Notes under the pieces: model-generated | Seen by the model: only the letters and a program-made list of their open reading frames with translations | Told to the model about the DNA's origin: nothing | The model's database searches: none | In this document: positions 14,144-22,094 of the stretch, piece by piece | How the letters are laid out: each line of letters starts with the position of its first letter | How positions within the stretch are numbered: the stretch's first letter is position 1 | Source: Rhodospirillaceae bacterium | Lineage (GTDB): Bacteria > Pseudomonadota > Alphaproteobacteria > CACIAM-22H2 | DNA length: 36,120 nt | Assembly: GCA_009694125.1 (NCBI GenBank) | Contig: SHVT01000010.1 | Coordinates: 1-36,120, forward strand | Direction of reading: 5' to 3' | Translations under genes and position numbers: made by a program

Positions 14144-15307
14144 TTATTCCGCGGCGGTTTCGCTGGCCAACACCTTGGCGAAGGGGATCGCCGCGACGGC
14201 CTGCCGACGGATGAGCTGCGATGCGGGGTTCAGCCCGGATTTGCGGGCGGCCTCCATGACGTGGCGCATCGCCGCGACCACATGACCGGGGGTGGCCGGC
14301 GCGAGATTCGCGGCGATGATGTCGATCGCGCGCTCTTCGAACGGGGCGAACCCGTTGGGGCGGCGGCGCTGGGAATCGAGCAGGGTCAACACGAACCGCT
14401 TTCCATCCGCCGCCGACAGCGGATCGAGAACGATCTGCGCGCGCAGACGACCGAGAACCGGATCGGTGAAAATCGCCGGCACTTCGGCGGCCGACAGATC
14501 GGCGGCGACGACCAGGCAAAAACAATGGCGGCACAGCTCGCACAGCTTGAACAAGGCTTGGTTGGCGGCGAATAGATCGGCCGGTTCGGCGAATCGCAGC
14601 GCGTCGAAATCGTCGATCAACACATAGGCCGCCTTCTTAAAGCGAGCCGGGTCGAGATCGATCTTGAAATCGATCACGAACAGCCCGACGACGCCGGCGA
14701 ACATGGCCAGGGCGTCCGCATTCGATTGGTGCGGCGGCGTCAGCACCGCCAGCAGATCGGGAAGTCCGGTGCAGCCTCGGATTTTCTTGGCGAGATCGGC
14801 GAGGTCCGGGACCTGAATGAGGTGATCGATGATTTCGTCGTCCGAGACGAACGCATTGACCTTGTGCAGGTCGCGATAACGCAGCAATTTGCGTTGAAGG
14901 TAGTCTTGGAAATGCAGGATTTGGCGAACGAAGTCGGATCGCCCGATGACGTCTTCCCGAAAGGTTCGGGCGAGGCCGAGCCGGCGGCCGCCGGCGACCA
15001 GCGAAGGCAGATAGAAGGCGACGGCCTGATAGTCTTCCGCCTCGGCTTCCATCACCTTGTGGCGCGCCCATTGCAGCGCGTGGGTCTTGCCGGCGCCGGC
15101 CGCACCGCGCAGCAGAACGATACCCGAGCTGCCGAACTCATCGGCTCGCGCCAGTCTCAGATGTTTGACCAGATGTTTCTGCGCCGTTTCATTTCCAGCC
15201 CAAAGCGCGGCCCGCGGATCGAGTCCGGGAACCGCCTCCGCCCGAAACGGGTTGGCGGAAAGATTGGCAGCCTTCAGAAACTCGGCGGGCGCCAGCATGG
15301 GGAGCAC
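14144..15307 (-). CDS. AAA/ORC-type P-loop ATPase of unknown function
   Basis: Walker A LLRGAAGAGKTHALQ, Walker B-like YVLIDDFDAL, followed by LCELCRHCFCLVVAAD. Confidence 0.78.
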   Translation of the reverse strand: MLPMLAPAEFLKAANLSANPFRAEAVPGLDPRAALWAGNETAQKHLVKHLRLARADEFGSSGIVLLRGAAGAGKTHALQWARHKVMEAEAEDYQAVAFYLPSLVAGGRRLGLARTFREDVIGRSDFVRQILHFQDYLQRKLLRYRDLHKVNAFVSDDEIIDHLIQVPDLADLAKKIRGCTGLPDLLAVLTPPHQSNADALAMFAGVVGLFVIDFKIDLDPARFKKAAYVLIDDFDALRFAEPADLFAANQALFKLCELCRHCFCLVVAADLSAAEVPAIFTDPVLGRLRAQIVLDPLSAADGKRFVLTLLDSQRRRPNGFAPFEERAIDIIAANLAPATPGHVVAAMRHVMEAARKSGLNPASQLIRRQAVAAIPFAKVLASETAAE

Positions 15308-15447: not shown

Positions 15448-15543
15448 AAAGTCTTAACAAGGGTGGGATTGATGGCGAAATACCGGATGCTGGCGCCGCT
15501 CCGCGCGGATTGCGAAATCTGCAATGGCGAGAGGCTTTGAACA

Positions 15544-18210
15544 TTGGCAACTCCGACCAAAACCGTCGCCTTCGGTCTGAATGGACACGGCGCCGAAGTG
15601 CCAGCCGAGCCGGAACGCCGGCTCGTCGATGCGCTCCGCCAGGATTTGGGCCTCACCGGAACCAAGATCGGCTGCGACACCGGTGATTGCGGGCTGTGCC
15701 TGGTCCTGATCGACGGCCGCCCGACACGGTCATGCAGGGCCCCGGTCAGCCAGGTCGATGGCTGTGCGGTTCGTACCGTGGAAGGCATCCTGCGCGACGG
15801 CGCGTTGAGCAAGCTGCAACTAGCCTTTATCGATCGCGGCGCCGCGCAATGCGGCTTCTGCACACCGGCGATGTTGATCGCTGCGCACGCTTTGCTGGTC
15901 CGCAATCCGACCCCCGATGCTGAGGCGGTGCGGACGGCGCTGGCGGGCATTCCCTGCCGCTGCACCGGCTACAAAACGATCGTCGAGGCCGTGCTGGCCG
16001 CTGCCGCCGACCCGCCGGCCCCGGCTGCGGGGTCGGGCACAACACCGGTGGGTGCGCGCCTGCCCGCGATCGATGCCAAGGCCAAGGTGACGGGCGCCCA
16101 ACGATTCGCCGCCGATCTACCGCCGGACCCGGAAACTCTTTATGTGCGCATCGTCGATGCCGGCGACAACCTGGGCCCGTTCGCTATTGGCAACCCAGCG
16201 CCTTTTCTCGCGAAACATCCGGGGATCATTCGGCTGCTGACGGCGGCGGACGGTCTCGGCCGGGGCGGTTCCTCACCCTTCGCCGAAAACTCGGTGTCCT
16301 ATCGCGGCCAGCCGGTCTGCGCTTTGGTGGGCGACCTCGCCGCGCTCGCGGCCATCGATGTCGCGGCCCTGCCGATCGAATGGAAGAAATCGGCGCCCGG
16401 CGCAATCGGCGCCGGGCGCGAATGGACTGTCGTCTCCGGTGACGCCGATTCCGCGTTTGCCGCTTCCCACCTGGTGGTCGAAACCACGATCGACACATCC
16501 CTGGCCGACGCCGCCGTCCTCGAGCCGGAGACGGCCAGCGCGCGGCGGAGAGGCAATGTCGTCGAAATCACCGCGGGGACGACCTCACCCTTTGCCGATC
16601 GTGCCCGCATCGCCGCGGCGCTCGGCCTCGCCCTCGACCAGGTTCGCATCTTGGCCACGCCCGCGGGCGGCGCCCGCGGCGATTCGCCTCTCTCTACCAT
16701 CGTCGCCCTGGCCGCGTGGCTAACCGGGCGGCCCACGCGATGTTCGCCGCCGCGCGCTCAATCCTTGGCCATGTCGCCGAAACGGCCGCGGGCAAAATTG
16801 TCCGGCCGCGCGGCCTGCGACCAATGGGGTTATTTCGCGGCCATGGACGTAAAGGGCCAGTTCGACATCGGCGCCGATGCCGAGACCGATGCGGGCCTGA
16901 GTTTTGCCGTGCACGCGCCGGGGCCATTCTACCTTCCCGCCGCCCGCGCCAAGTCGCGCGCCGAGCCGGGCACCAACTACGCCGCGAGCGCGGGGCGCGG
17001 CCTCGGCACGGCCGAGGCGGCTTTGCTGTACGACTCACTGGTCGACGAGTTGGCGGATCAAATGAAGATCGATCCGCTGCAATTCCGCCGGCAGAACGCG
17101 CTGCGGCGCGGGTTGCCGACGCCCAGCGGCCAATGGCTCACGGCCAGCGTCGGCCTCAAACCCTGCCTCGACGCGTTGCGTCCGCGCTGGCAGACGGCAC
17201 GCGAGGAGGCCTTGCGCTACAACACCGGCGCGGCGCGGCTGAAACGCGGAGTCGGCATCGCCGGCGGCTGGAGTGGTATCGGCGCCCCGGCCCGGCCCGA
17301 TCCGGCGGCCGCCCGCATCGGCTTGGGACAGGTCGGTTTGTTCATGCTTTACGCCGACGCCGCCGATGGCGGCGCCGGTGCCGGAACGGCATTGATCCAA
17401 ATCGCCGCGGAGGCGCTCGGCCTTCCGACGAACCTTTTCCGGCTCGCGCCGGCCGACACCGACATCATTCCCGACGCCGGCCCGCCATCGGCGTCGCGGC
17501 GTATATTCGTTCTGGGCCAGGCGGTGCGGCTCGCCGCATCCGACTTGAAGCGGCAGATTTTGGCCATGGCTGCGCTTGGCGCCGACGCCACTTTGGCGGT
17601 ACAGGGGCGAACCGTGACCGTCACCGCCGGGAAGCAGTCAAAATCGGTCGAACTCGGCTCCATGGCCAGCGATTCCCGGGGCGACACGTTGATCGGTAAC
17701 GGCAGCTTCGATCCGCCGACACTCGATCTCGACGCCGCCGGCCAGGGCCTGCCGCACGCCGTTTATGCCTTTGCGGCGCAGATCGCGGAAGTGGTGGTCG
17801 ACACCACCGACGGCTCGATCCTCGTGCTGAAAGTGACTGCCGCTCAAGATGTCGGCCGCGCCATAAACCCGACCCTGATCGAGGGCCAAATCCATGGCGG
17901 CATCGTTCAGGGCCTGGGTTGGACGTTGTTTGAACGTTATGTGCCGGCCGAGAGCGGGAGCTTCAAGGGCTACCGTATCCCGATGATCGCGGACATGCCG
18001 ACCATCGAGACGATCTTGATCGAGGACCCAGAACCGCTTGGCCCCTTCGGTGCCAAGAGTGTGCGCGACGCCGCCTTCGTGCCCACGGCACCGGCCATTC
18101 TCAATGCCGTCTTTAATGCCACCGGCGCGCGGATCGTGAGCCTGCCCGCCACCCCGCCGCGTGTGCTCGCCTCCATTCGCGAGGCGGAGCGGCGGCGCAG
18201 CAAGGCCTAG
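15544..18210 (+). CDS. Xanthine-oxidase-family molybdopterin hydroxylase with fused 2Fe-2S and Mo domains (divergent)
   Basis: N-terminal GCDTGDCGLCLVLIDGRPTRSC and CGFCTPAM...CRCTGY ferredoxin motifs; C-terminal VTAAQDVGRAINPTLIEGQIHGGIVQGLGWTLFE. TTG start preceded by GAGAGG. Confidence 0.85.
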   Translation: MATPTKTVAFGLNGHGAEVPAEPERRLVDALRQDLGLTGTKIGCDTGDCGLCLVLIDGRPTRSCRAPVSQVDGCAVRTVEGILRDGALSKLQLAFIDRGAAQCGFCTPAMLIAAHALLVRNPTPDAEAVRTALAGIPCRCTGYKTIVEAVLAAAADPPAPAAGSGTTPVGARLPAIDAKAKVTGAQRFAADLPPDPETLYVRIVDAGDNLGPFAIGNPAPFLAKHPGIIRLLTAADGLGRGGSSPFAENSVSYRGQPVCALVGDLAALAAIDVAALPIEWKKSAPGAIGAGREWTVVSGDADSAFAASHLVVETTIDTSLADAAVLEPETASARRRGNVVEITAGTTSPFADRARIAAALGLALDQVRILATPAGGARGDSPLSTIVALAAWLTGRPTRCSPPRAQSLAMSPKRPRAKLSGRAACDQWGYFAAMDVKGQFDIGADAETDAGLSFAVHAPGPFYLPAARAKSRAEPGTNYAASAGRGLGTAEAALLYDSLVDELADQMKIDPLQFRRQNALRRGLPTPSGQWLTASVGLKPCLDALRPRWQTAREEALRYNTGAARLKRGVGIAGGWSGIGAPARPDPAAARIGLGQVGLFMLYADAADGGAGAGTALIQIAAEALGLPTNLFRLAPADTDIIPDAGPPSASRRIFVLGQAVRLAASDLKRQILAMAALGADATLAVQGRTVTVTAGKQSKSVELGSMASDSRGDTLIGNGSFDPPTLDLDAAGQGLPHAVYAFAAQIAEVVVDTTDGSILVLKVTAAQDVGRAINPTLIEGQIHGGIVQGLGWTLFERYVPAESGSFKGYRIPMIADMPTIETILIEDPEPLGPFGAKSVRDAAFVPTAPAILNAVFNATGARIVSLPATPPRVLASIREAERRRSKA

Positions 18211-18335: not shown

Positions 18336-21300
18336 CTAGCCGGGATCGCGTCCCGGCCTGGATTCCGCAAGCTGCGTCAGCCGGCGGTGGGTATCGTTGG
18401 CGCGGGGACGCCACAGGCCTCGAGCCTGGGCCTCGAGTAGGCGCTGGCTCATTTCCCGCAGCGCGGCGGGGTTTGCATCCTTTAGAAACGCGCACACGGT
18501 TTCGTCGCGCAAATAGGCGTCGAACACGGCGTCGAAGTGATGATCCTTCACCGCCGCCGTGGTGGCCGCGAAGGCGAAGAGATAATCCACCGTAGCCGCC
18601 ATTTCAAAAGCGCCCTTATAGCCGTGGCGCATGACCCCGCGAATCCATTTCGGATTGACCACGCGCGCCCGCAGGATGCGCGCGGCTTCTTCCTCCAGCG
18701 TCCGCACCTTCGGCGATTCCGGCCGCGAATGGTCGTTGTGGTAGACCGTCGGCGACCGTCCGGAGATGTGGCGAATCGCGGCGGTTAGACCGCCCTCGAA
18801 CTGATAATAATCGTCGCTGTCGAAAAGATCGTGTTCGCGGTTGTCCTGGTTCTGCACCACGGCGTCGATGCGCGAAAGCCGCGTCTCGAACAACGAATGT
18901 TCGGCTTGCCCCTCGGCGCCGCCGCCATAGGCGTAACCGCCCCAGGCGACATAGGCGCGGGCAAGGTCGGCGGCGCTGTCCCAGCCGCGTTCGTCGATGA
19001 GCGCCTGCAAGCCGGCACCATAAGCCCCCGGCTTGGACCCGAAGACGCGATAACCGGCGCGTAGGCGCGCCTCCGTGGCAGAGGCGCCGGCTTCGACGAG
19101 CCGCGCCGATTCGGCCGCGACCCGTGCGGCCTGCGGGTTCACGTCCGCCGGTTCGTCGAGAGCCGCCACCGCCCGCGCGGCGCTATCGAACAATTCAATC
19201 AGATTGGGAAAGGCGTCGCGAAAAAAGCCAGAGACGCGCAGCGTTACGTCGACTCGCGGGCGGTCGAGCAGCGAAGCGGGAAGAACCTCGAAGCCGCACA
19301 CGCGGCCGGTCGCGACATCCCAACGGGGCCGGGCGCCGATAAGCGCCAAGGCCTGCGCGATGTCGTCGCCGCCGGTCCGCATGGCGCTGGTGCCCCAGGC
19401 CGACAGGGCGAGCGCCTTTGGATACTCGCCATGGTCCTGAGCATGACGCGCGAGCAGCAACCCCGCCGATTTCCAACCCAGCGTCCAGGCCGCCGGGGTC
19501 GGCAGCGCCCGTGTATCGACGGAGTAGAAGTTGCGCCCGGTGGGCAAGACCTCGGGGCGGCCGCGGCTCGGCGCGCCGGACGGTCCCGGCTTCACCAATC
19601 GGCCGTCGAGTCCGGCGAGGAGTCCCGCGATTTCGCCGCCGCCGCAGGCGAACACGGCCGGGCGCAACCAAGTCTCGATCCAGGACAACACCGCCCGCGC
19701 CCGCGCCCAGGTCGGTTCGGCGGCCCTCTCGCCCGCGACCAACGCCTTGCCAAGAAACTCCAAGCGCTCGACCGTATCGCCATGGCTGCGCCACGGCGAC
19801 CCGTCCGCCAGAGCCGACGGACGCGGCCCGGTCCATGGCGCCGCCATGTCGCAATCGAGCGGATCGAAATCGAGCCCTAGGTCGGCGGCGAGCGCGCGGA
19901 GAAGCGAGGCGTCTCCATTATCTCCCGATCGCCGCGGCAGGCGCGACAGGGCGACGAGAAGATCGACGAGTTGACCGTCGGCGGGCGCGCGACCGAAAAC
20001 ATGCAGCCCATCGCGGATTTGCAGTTCCTTGATTTCACACAGGAACGAATCGAGCTTGACCAGCGCCGCGGTCGCATCGTCGTTCGGCGCGATCCCGCAA
20101 TCGCGGTCGAGCCCGATCCGGCGCGTGAGATCGAGAATCTCACCGCCCAGAAGTTTCAGCCGGCGCGGATCGAGTCCCGACGCTTCGTAATATTCGTCGA
20201 TGAGGCACTCCAATTCGCGCAGCGGCCCGTAACTTTCGGCGCGCGTCAGCGGGGGCGTCAGGTGATCGACGATGACCGCCTGGGCCCGCCGTTTGGCTTG
20301 CGTGCCTTCGCCGGGATCGTTGACGATGAAGGGATAAAGGTGCGGCATCGGCCCGAAGGCCGCCTCCGGGAAACACGAGTCGGACAGCGCCAGCGCCTTT
20401 CCCGGCAGCCATTCGAGGTTGCCGTGTTTGCCGATATCGACGATGGCGTCGGCGCGGAAGGCCAAACGCAGCCAGGCGTAAAAGGCCAAATAGCCATGGG
20501 GCGGGGGCAGGTCTGGATCGTGATAGGAACGCGCCGGATCGATGTCGTAGCCACGCGACGGCTGCAGCCCGACGACAATCTTGCCAAAGCGCAAGGCGGC
20601 GATGGCGAAGGCCCCGCAATCGGTGGCGCCGGGCAGGAAACAGGGATCACTTTCCGCCGACCCCCAGCGTGCCGTGACTTTGTCCCGCACCGCACGCGGC
20701 AGGCTGGAGAAAAACGCGGCATAGTCCGATAGCGGAAGTGTTTCGGCGATGACACGCGACGACAGGGCGCGTTTGTCGTTGCTCGGCCCGGCCAGAAGAC
20801 TTCGCACGAGCGCGGCGCCGTCCACCGGGGGACGTCGCACGTCATAACCCGCCTCTTTGAGCGCACCGAGGATCGCGATCGTGGAGGCTGGCGTATCCAA
20901 GCCCACGCCATTGCCGATGCGCCCATCGCGATTGGGATAGTTGGCAAGGACGAGCGCGATTCTGCGTTCGCCGGGCGGCGTTCGGCGCAGCTTCACCCAT
21001 GCCGCCGCCAAGGCCGCGGTGAACTCGACACGATCGGCAAGGGGGACTTGGCCCACGATGTCGGTCTGCGTCGCCTCGTCGCGGCGCAGCCGGCCCTTGA
21101 AGGCTATCGCGCGGGTCAAAATCCGACCGTCGATTTCCGGCAGGGCGACGTTCATCGCCAGGTCGCGGGCGGCGAGGCCGTTGGTTCCCGCGCGCCACGC
21201 CTCTTCCTCGCCGCCGGAAAGAACGACCTGCAAGACAGGGCAATTCGGCGCCGCCAGCGGATCGGTCCGCCCCTCGCCCAGCGCGAAGCCGGTCGTGGCG

Positions 21301-22094
21301 AGCACGATATCCGGGGGCGCGGCGGCGAACGCCTCGGCGATCATCGCCGCCGCCATCGGGTCCTTCAAGCTCGCGACCTGTATCGGCAGCGCCGACAATC
21401 CATGCCGGTGCAGCGCCTCGATCAGAACATCGATCGCCGCCGTATTCGCCGCCAGCGCCAGGGCACGGTAGAAGACGATAGCCGCGACCGGCCGCTGGGC
21501 GGTCCAGCGGACCCGAATGTCGGCGAGACTGGGCGAGACACATCCCGGCCAATGGAAACCCGCGCGCAGCACCGGCGCCGGTTCCCGCCAGTCCATTCGG
21601 GCGCCGGTTAGGTTGGCGGCGTAGCGCAAGAACTGGCCTGCATTGTCGATGCCGCCAAACACGAAATACTGCCACAGCCGGTGCGTCGCTTCCGCCGGCA
21701 GGGTCGACAGCCCGGCAAAGCCGGGATCCGGCTGGTCGTCGCCGGGCAGAAGAGCTAGTGCAATGCCCCGCCGGCGGCAGGTGCCGACGATTTGCTCGAC
21801 GCCATGCGGCCAATAGGATTGGCCGCCAAGCACGCGGGCGACGACCAGCTTTGCCTGCGACACCACCCGCTCCACATACAGATCCACGGACAGATTGTGG
21901 GCAAGGCTGAGGGTGCTGGCGAGCCGCAGGCTGGGAAGATTGTCCCGTTCTTTTTCCAACACCTGGCGGGCGGCGGCCAGGCAAGCGATCTCGCTGTCGG
22001 CCGCGGTCAGGACAACGATGTCGCCCGGGCTCTGGTCGAGGTCGATGGCGACGCCATTGTCAACGACACCCGGCTGCGCGGCCAGCAAATGCAT
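18336..22094 (-). CDS. cobN: Aerobic-type cobaltochelatase subunit CobN
   Basis: 1252 aa; DIGKHGNLEWLPGKALALSDSCFPEAAFGPMPHLYPFIVNDPGEGTQAKRRAQAVIVDHLTPP, typical CobN/ChlH signature. Confidence 0.96.
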   Translation of the reverse strand: MHLLAAQPGVVDNGVAIDLDQSPGDIVVLTAADSEIACLAAARQVLEKERDNLPSLRLASTLSLAHNLSVDLYVERVVSQAKLVVARVLGGQSYWPHGVEQIVGTCRRRGIALALLPGDDQPDPGFAGLSTLPAEATHRLWQYFVFGGIDNAGQFLRYAANLTGARMDWREPAPVLRAGFHWPGCVSPSLADIRVRWTAQRPVAAIVFYRALALAANTAAIDVLIEALHRHGLSALPIQVASLKDPMAAAMIAEAFAAAPPDIVLATTGFALGEGRTDPLAAPNCPVLQVVLSGGEEEAWRAGTNGLAARDLAMNVALPEIDGRILTRAIAFKGRLRRDEATQTDIVGQVPLADRVEFTAALAAAWVKLRRTPPGERRIALVLANYPNRDGRIGNGVGLDTPASTIAILGALKEAGYDVRRPPVDGAALVRSLLAGPSNDKRALSSRVIAETLPLSDYAAFFSSLPRAVRDKVTARWGSAESDPCFLPGATDCGAFAIAALRFGKIVVGLQPSRGYDIDPARSYHDPDLPPPHGYLAFYAWLRLAFRADAIVDIGKHGNLEWLPGKALALSDSCFPEAAFGPMPHLYPFIVNDPGEGTQAKRRAQAVIVDHLTPPLTRAESYGPLRELECLIDEYYEASGLDPRRLKLLGGEILDLTRRIGLDRDCGIAPNDDATAALVKLDSFLCEIKELQIRDGLHVFGRAPADGQLVDLLVALSRLPRRSGDNGDASLLRALAADLGLDFDPLDCDMAAPWTGPRPSALADGSPWRSHGDTVERLEFLGKALVAGERAAEPTWARARAVLSWIETWLRPAVFACGGGEIAGLLAGLDGRLVKPGPSGAPSRGRPEVLPTGRNFYSVDTRALPTPAAWTLGWKSAGLLLARHAQDHGEYPKALALSAWGTSAMRTGGDDIAQALALIGARPRWDVATGRVCGFEVLPASLLDRPRVDVTLRVSGFFRDAFPNLIELFDSAARAVAALDEPADVNPQAARVAAESARLVEAGASATEARLRAGYRVFGSKPGAYGAGLQALIDERGWDSAADLARAYVAWGGYAYGGGAEGQAEHSLFETRLSRIDAVVQNQDNREHDLFDSDDYYQFEGGLTAAIRHISGRSPTVYHNDHSRPESPKVRTLEEEAARILRARVVNPKWIRGVMRHGYKGAFEMAATVDYLFAFAATTAAVKDHHFDAVFDAYLRDETVCAFLKDANPAALREMSQRLLEAQARGLWRPRANDTHRRLTQLAESRPGRDPG

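Follow-up and report, generated by a model that had tools for sequence, protein, structure and literature searches.

A fused iron-sulfur/molybdenum-domain protein encoded in the window (the whole stretch of 36,120 nucleotides analysed) is likely a catalytically dead and probably cofactor-free pseudoenzyme that selection has kept for a new role. Pseudoenzymes are well known among kinases and some other enzymes. To our knowledge, the molybdenum-enzyme cases are NuoG-type domains, which belong to another family, and an inactive xanthine-oxidase-family homolog kept by selection was not found in the literature searched, whose coverage was partial. The setting is notable: molybdenum cofactor is clearly still produced in these cells, which also encode many paralogs that look active. 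Our sample consists of three species of one freshwater alphaproteobacterial genus, all represented by metagenome-assembled genomes or draft bins. The window genome is a 75%-complete draft of 65 contigs, and the other two genomes are 94% and 97% complete. One of the bins (L012, CAMDDQ010000001.1) was deposited as Asaia bogorensis; it groups in the window genus with L011 ("Rhodospirillales bacterium") and its species name looks wrong.

Cluster ligands and molybdenum-site motifs

The 888-aa protein matched the Pfam domains Fer2, Fer2_2, MoCoBD_1 and MoCoBD_2, each above its curated cut-off. The claim of canonical 2Fe-2S ligands made in the original prediction holds in the alignment, where all eight cysteines are intact, and the predicted open frame of 888 codons is a real gene (Table 1). 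Its TTG start and surrounding context are also kept in the two other species (L011 and L012), and an in-frame TGA lies two codons 5' of the start. The upstream intergenic DNA is conserved no more than other intergenic regions and gave no Rfam match, which rules out a special conserved upstream element.

Table 1. Features of the locus, with positions in the window
Feature	Position	Strand	Remark
GltD-like NAD(P)/FAD oxidoreductase (PRK06567-like), 1162 aa	10653..14141	+	Syntenic anchor common with sister genera
P-loop/AAA-like protein, 387 aa, divergent neighbour	14144..15307	-	Genus-only; may be a partner
AGAGG, probable ribosome-binding site	15530..15534	+	9 nt 5' of TTG; purine-rich AAAGG/GAGG in 3/3 species
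Fused [2Fe-2S]-[2Fe-2S]-Mo-domain protein (xanthine-oxidase fold), 888 aa	15544..18210	+	TTG start; no FAD domain
Plant-type ferredoxin cluster ligands C44, C49, C52, C64	15673..15735	+	Intact (CDTGDCGLC + C64)
Second (proximal) cluster ligands C103, C106 (CGFC), C138, C140 (CRCTGY)	15850..15963	+	Intact
GTTSP (345-349) replacing xTQxP	16576..16590	+	Gln (XO Gln767 equivalent) to Thr347
GGARGDS (375-381) replacing GGGFGGKLD	16666..16686	+	Pterin-stacking Phe to Arg378
AGRGLG replacing AFRGFG, active-site loop (GRGLG 484-488)	16990..17007	+	Arg485 kept; both Phe lost
DGGAGAG replacing DIGQGSN (GQG to GAG)	17365..17385	+	Gln lost; residue 611 is Ala/Ala/Gly across three species
SASRR replacing SASRQ	17488..17502	+	Gln to Arg653
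AQDVGR replacing AHDVGR	17842..17859	+	His to Gln768
GAKSVRDAAF replacing GAKGIGEPAL (SVRD 839-842)	18049..18078	+	Catalytic Glu to Asp842; preceding Gly to Arg841
cobN, convergent neighbour	18336..22094	-	Slot holds 6-hydroxynicotinate-reductase-like operon in sister genera

The molybdenum domains present a different picture. The unusual sequences GTTSP, GGARGDS, GRGLG and SVRD had been predicted at their landmarks, and each was found as described. Changes beyond those predicted are Ala611, Arg653 and Gln768 and the deletion of three residues that follow GGGFG in orthologs (e.g., GKL). The family's pocket motifs GGxFGxK, xTQxP and GQG are absent, as is the active-site base Glu (Glu1261 in XO, Glu869 in AOR). 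A search for intact motif copies elsewhere in the protein returned none: the changed residues occupy the motif columns themselves, and comparison with 34 canonical orthologs and solved structures rules out misalignment. Retention in the pterin pocket was assessed by equivalence to five residues that stabilise the pterin in human AOX1 (hAOX1). Gln113 corresponds to Gln102, immediately before the proximal-cluster ligands, and Arg921 to Arg485, and both are kept. For Gln776 and Phe807, the counterpart has been lost. Gln1203 probably corresponds, by register, to Gln782, which two species retain and L011 replaces with His.

These changes are not isolated to one genome. Two other species of the genus carry the same gene (L011/G009 and L012/G008; 92% and 90% identical), and the molybdenum-site changes are the same at nearly every site in 3/3 sampled species. 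An assembly artefact or local frameshift is ruled out, since three species whose genomes were assembled separately show identical changes. A strong relative was detected in 65 of the 385 genomes sampled from the class. Among the homologs collected from outside the genus, 139/139 that cover the site have the catalytic Glu and 150/150 the stacking Phe, at the positions where the genus has Asp842 and Arg378. The loop Arg, found in 150/150 homologs covering its site, is the one that the genus keeps as Arg485. Near-invariant columns were defined on the 34 canonical alphaproteobacterial orthologs. In the molybdenum domains, every one of the three genus members departs from the reference at 83/237 such columns, which indicates that the motif changes are not due to chance; in the Fe-S domain 12/59 are changed, none of them a cluster-ligand cysteine. 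The lost near-invariant columns of the molybdenum domains vary within the genus at 9% of positions versus 18% at ordinary variable columns, so that the replacement residues appear to be constrained themselves.

The closest true relatives of the protein are a nicotinate-dehydrogenase-like alphaproteobacterial group. Escherichia coli XdhD and selenium-dependent hydroxylases, originally proposed as comparators, proved not to be apt: scores fall far below the equivalog cut-offs of NCBIfam TIGR03313 and TIGR03311 (XdhD-type and selenium-dependent; 169 versus 1102 and 366 versus 830 bits). The cut-off of NF045668 (molybdopterin-dependent aldehyde oxidoreductase) is likewise not reached (404.5 versus 1100 bits). 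No canonical close copy was found elsewhere in the genus, where the next-best Mo-domain paralog scores 112 bits.

AlphaFold2 predicted the full fold (mean pLDDT 85.6, pTM 0.90), which is closest to Desulfovibrio aldehyde oxidoreductase (D. gigas; TM 0.88). Prediction confidence falls at the cofactor loops. It falls too in a canonical control (L013) run with the same alignment (57 versus 61 for the GGGFG-loop block), and we therefore dropped this signal as evidence.

Selection and history of the gene

The 888-aa protein is under purifying selection. Across the three species, dN/dS was 0.15-0.17 with the Nei-Gojobori method (NG86) and 0.11-0.13 with YN00, at a dS of 0.25-0.30, and 888/888 codons align gap-free without a single stop or indel. 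The Fe-S domains are the most constrained (0.09-0.12), followed by the second (0.15) and first (0.20) molybdenum domains. Among the neighboring genes, dN/dS was 0.16-0.20 for ctaA and 0.07-0.09 for cobN, so that the 888-aa protein falls within the span of functional neighbors and close to ctaA. The absence of indels and stops at a dS of ~0.3, together with a dN/dS of 0.15-0.17, indicates that the gene is neither decaying nor an assembly artefact, and the predicted absence of simple decay is borne out by the orthologs in two other species. It is highly improbable that the gene died recently and that its frame has simply not yet been broken. Two facts would accord with such a scenario: the genus no longer has the other genes of the ancestral operon, and its branch is very long, at 1.8 changes per column. 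However, the 888 codons are free of indels in three species, dN/dS is only 0.11-0.17 across methods, and neutral simulations produced ~4-6 stops per copy and kept the frame intact in <2% of runs.

The gene order Zur, heme A synthase, 1162-aa GltD-like protein, one variable gene and Mo-domain gene is common to the genus and its sister genera, and this synteny supports orthology between the gene of the genus and the canonical genes of the sisters. The sister-genus orthologs, from the same family, are 45-48% identical to the window protein and have fully canonical motifs. In a tree built with distant outgroups, the genus, on its long branch, takes a basal position in the alphaproteobacterial group, a placement flagged for long-branch attraction. 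Without distant outgroups, the genus groups with its family (support 79/99, not starred), which, with the synteny, counters the possibility of an ancient paralog. Identity by domain is 41-53% between the genus and the sister genera versus 71-77% among the sisters. The neighboring 1162-aa protein shows 71% and 77% for the same comparisons, and the drop in the Mo-domain protein therefore reflects unusually fast change on the genus branch. The 1162-aa protein itself carries a C-terminal DHOD electron-transfer-like domain and adjoins the locus throughout the family.

The same branch also saw the loss of an operon. In sister genera, the ortholog is followed on its 3' side by a 6-hydroxynicotinate-reductase-like gene (named after RefSeq homologs), UPF0280, an "amino acid synthesis" protein and an ABC transporter; in some of them, genes for an FAD subunit and a ferredoxin-NADP reductase lie 5' of it. 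Each canonical copy in the family has the 6-hydroxynicotinate-reductase-like gene next to it; none of the three genus genomes (75%, 94% and 97% complete) contains this gene. The Mo-domain gene of the genus is monocistronic, with a divergent genus-only gene on one side and the convergent cobN on the other, and no redox partner was identified at this locus.

Loss of molybdenum cofactor synthesis is not the cause of these changes, since moaA and many other molybdenum hydroxylases are kept. We found moaA in 3/3 genus genomes. NTP-transferase-domain proteins, a class to which MobA/MocA belong, are also present, and the two more complete genomes (G008 and G009) contain 40 and 52 MoCoBD_2 stretches (e.g., L139-L168). 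These two genomes are only 2.2-2.6 Mb each and the counts suggest at least 20 molybdenum-hydroxylase large subunits apiece, which is an unusual number.

Proposed role and competing explanations

We propose that the ancestral protein would have been a canonical alphaproteobacterial N-heterocycle hydroxylase, nicotinate-dehydrogenase-like, with a fused Fe-S/Mo chain and co-encoded with a 6-hydroxynicotinate-reductase-like enzyme. In the genus, the remaining operon has been lost, together with the general base (Glu to Asp842) and several molybdopterin-pocket residues, and positive charge has been gained in the pocket motifs through Arg378, Arg653 and Arg841. The resulting protein would fold without molybdenum cofactor and lack hydroxylase activity, with a stable scaffold that still carries both [2Fe-2S] clusters. 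Judging from its residues, the window protein most likely binds no cofactor and performs no hydroxylation.

Studies of related enzymes bear on this proposal. Removal of the catalytic Glu inactivates both mouse AOX1 (E1265Q; PMC2671166) and Kdh (E748A; PMC8305194). Kdh has Phe269 stacked on its pterin (PMC8305194), and the equivalent residue in the window protein is Arg378. The natural human AOX1 variant G1269R is inactive, and its crystal structure is Moco-free with the fold and Fe-S centres preserved; Arg1269 fills the position of the Moco phosphate and so keeps the cofactor out (PMC6487702). The alignment register, which pairs fragment residue 105 with chain residue 1269, puts Arg841 of the window protein at this very position.

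The original prediction had offered either repurposing for electron transfer or sensing, or altered enzyme chemistry. We favor non-catalytic repurposing because invariant residues are lost and because the protein matches the cofactor-free AOX1 G1269R. An altered-chemistry enzyme would bind molybdenum cofactor through Gln102, Arg485 and Gln782, use Asp842 as base and shape an anionic-substrate site with its new arginines. Several observations are consistent with it: the exchange of Glu for Asp is conservative, Arg485 and other pocket residues are retained, the molybdenum domains are under selection too (dN/dS 0.15-0.20), and the genus invests heavily in other molybdenum hydroxylases. We nevertheless consider it unlikely, given that Arg841 occupies the site where hAOX1 Arg1269 blocks the Moco phosphate position (PMC6487702), that the stacking Phe, the Gln now replaced by Thr347 and other near-invariant residues were lost together, and that a non-Glu base was seen in 0 other homologs examined. 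Some points still speak against the cofactor-free pseudoenzyme. With Gln102 and Arg485 kept, and Gln782 in two of three species, some cofactor binding may persist, and Asp842 is still a carboxylate that may function weakly as a base. The surroundings of the monocistronic gene offer no redox partner either.

An electron-carrier or scaffold role is suggested by elimination and by analogy with the formate-dehydrogenase-like domain of StnC. Within this range, the likeliest use, which we advance tentatively, is that of a one-electron carrier or a binding module that responds to redox state by way of both clusters. Alternatively, the protein might act as a scaffold or sensor in which the old cofactor pocket binds another anionic ligand via the three new arginines, with clusters that are structural or signalling and a possible link to the AAA-like neighbor. 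Arg378, Arg653 and Arg841 were indeed gained in pocket motifs and are fixed in 3/3 species, and the divergent AAA-like gene is genus-restricted and strongly conserved. This 387-aa P-loop/AAA- or STAND-like protein has no relative at E<=1e-10 outside the genus among the 385 class genomes, yielded only weak NACHT/AAA_22 matches and zero PDB matches, and has a dN/dS of 0.07-0.10. However, its slot is the variable one of the locus and is held by unrelated genes (an EAL protein, a sulfatase) in other genera, such that the neighbor may be incidental, and we regard the scaffold or sensor as quite unlikely. It is also conceivable, if rather unlikely, that the genus as a whole possesses a cofactor-free pseudo-hydroxylase whose arginine-lined pocket binds an anionic ligand and is coupled to the two [2Fe-2S] clusters, which would make the xanthine-oxidase fold the basis of a new kind of redox sensor or carrier.

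Comparison with known systems

Human AOX1 G1269R (6q6q) is similar to the window protein in having an Arg directly before the catalytic base, as Arg841. It differs as a single-residue human variant in which the Glu is retained, whereas the change in the window protein is fixed in the genus and accompanied by the loss of the Glu and pocket residues. The window protein would represent a natural, evolved counterpart of this variant, and it enables a direct test of whether the xanthine-oxidase fold can serve as a stable [2Fe-2S] electron carrier after cofactor loss. It also carries a warning for annotation: such genes are labelled "xanthine dehydrogenase" though they would not be enzymes.

The best match in both sequence and fold is Desulfovibrio aldehyde oxidoreductase (1dgj, 1sij), in which one chain likewise joins two [2Fe-2S] domains to the molybdenum domains and FAD is lacking. 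In contrast to the window protein, with its Arg378, GAG and SVRD, this enzyme has the GGTFG-loop Phe, GQG and the GVGE base (Glu869). A formate-dehydrogenase-like domain that is inactive and kept within an Fe-S electron-transfer protein is known from StnC (PMC10482914). StnC and NuoG-type domains share with the window protein a molybdenum-enzyme fold that has lost catalysis, but they belong to another molybdenum-enzyme family, carry [4Fe-4S] clusters and reside inside a known large complex.

The nicotinate dehydrogenase of Eubacterium barkeri (3hrd) is, with the Desulfovibrio enzymes, among the best-matching solved relatives. In the alignment with it the C-terminal Mo half is covered over its full length, and the sister orthologs share with this system an operon that includes a 6-hydroxynicotinate-reductase-like gene. 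Unlike this enzyme, the window protein is without the catalytic Glu and the GAKGVGE motif, and the genus is without the partner reductase. A conserved alphaproteobacterial hydroxylase gene set, for which no description of the gene set or operon was found in the literature searched, is also present on a Sulfitobacter pontiacus plasmid (L183; NZ_CP084962.1, record 116305-130610). This set comprises a ferredoxin-NADP reductase, an FAD subunit, an Fe-S/Mo hydroxylase, a 6-hydroxynicotinate-reductase-like protein, UPF0280, two "amino acid synthesis" proteins, a Rieske dioxygenase and an ABC transporter.
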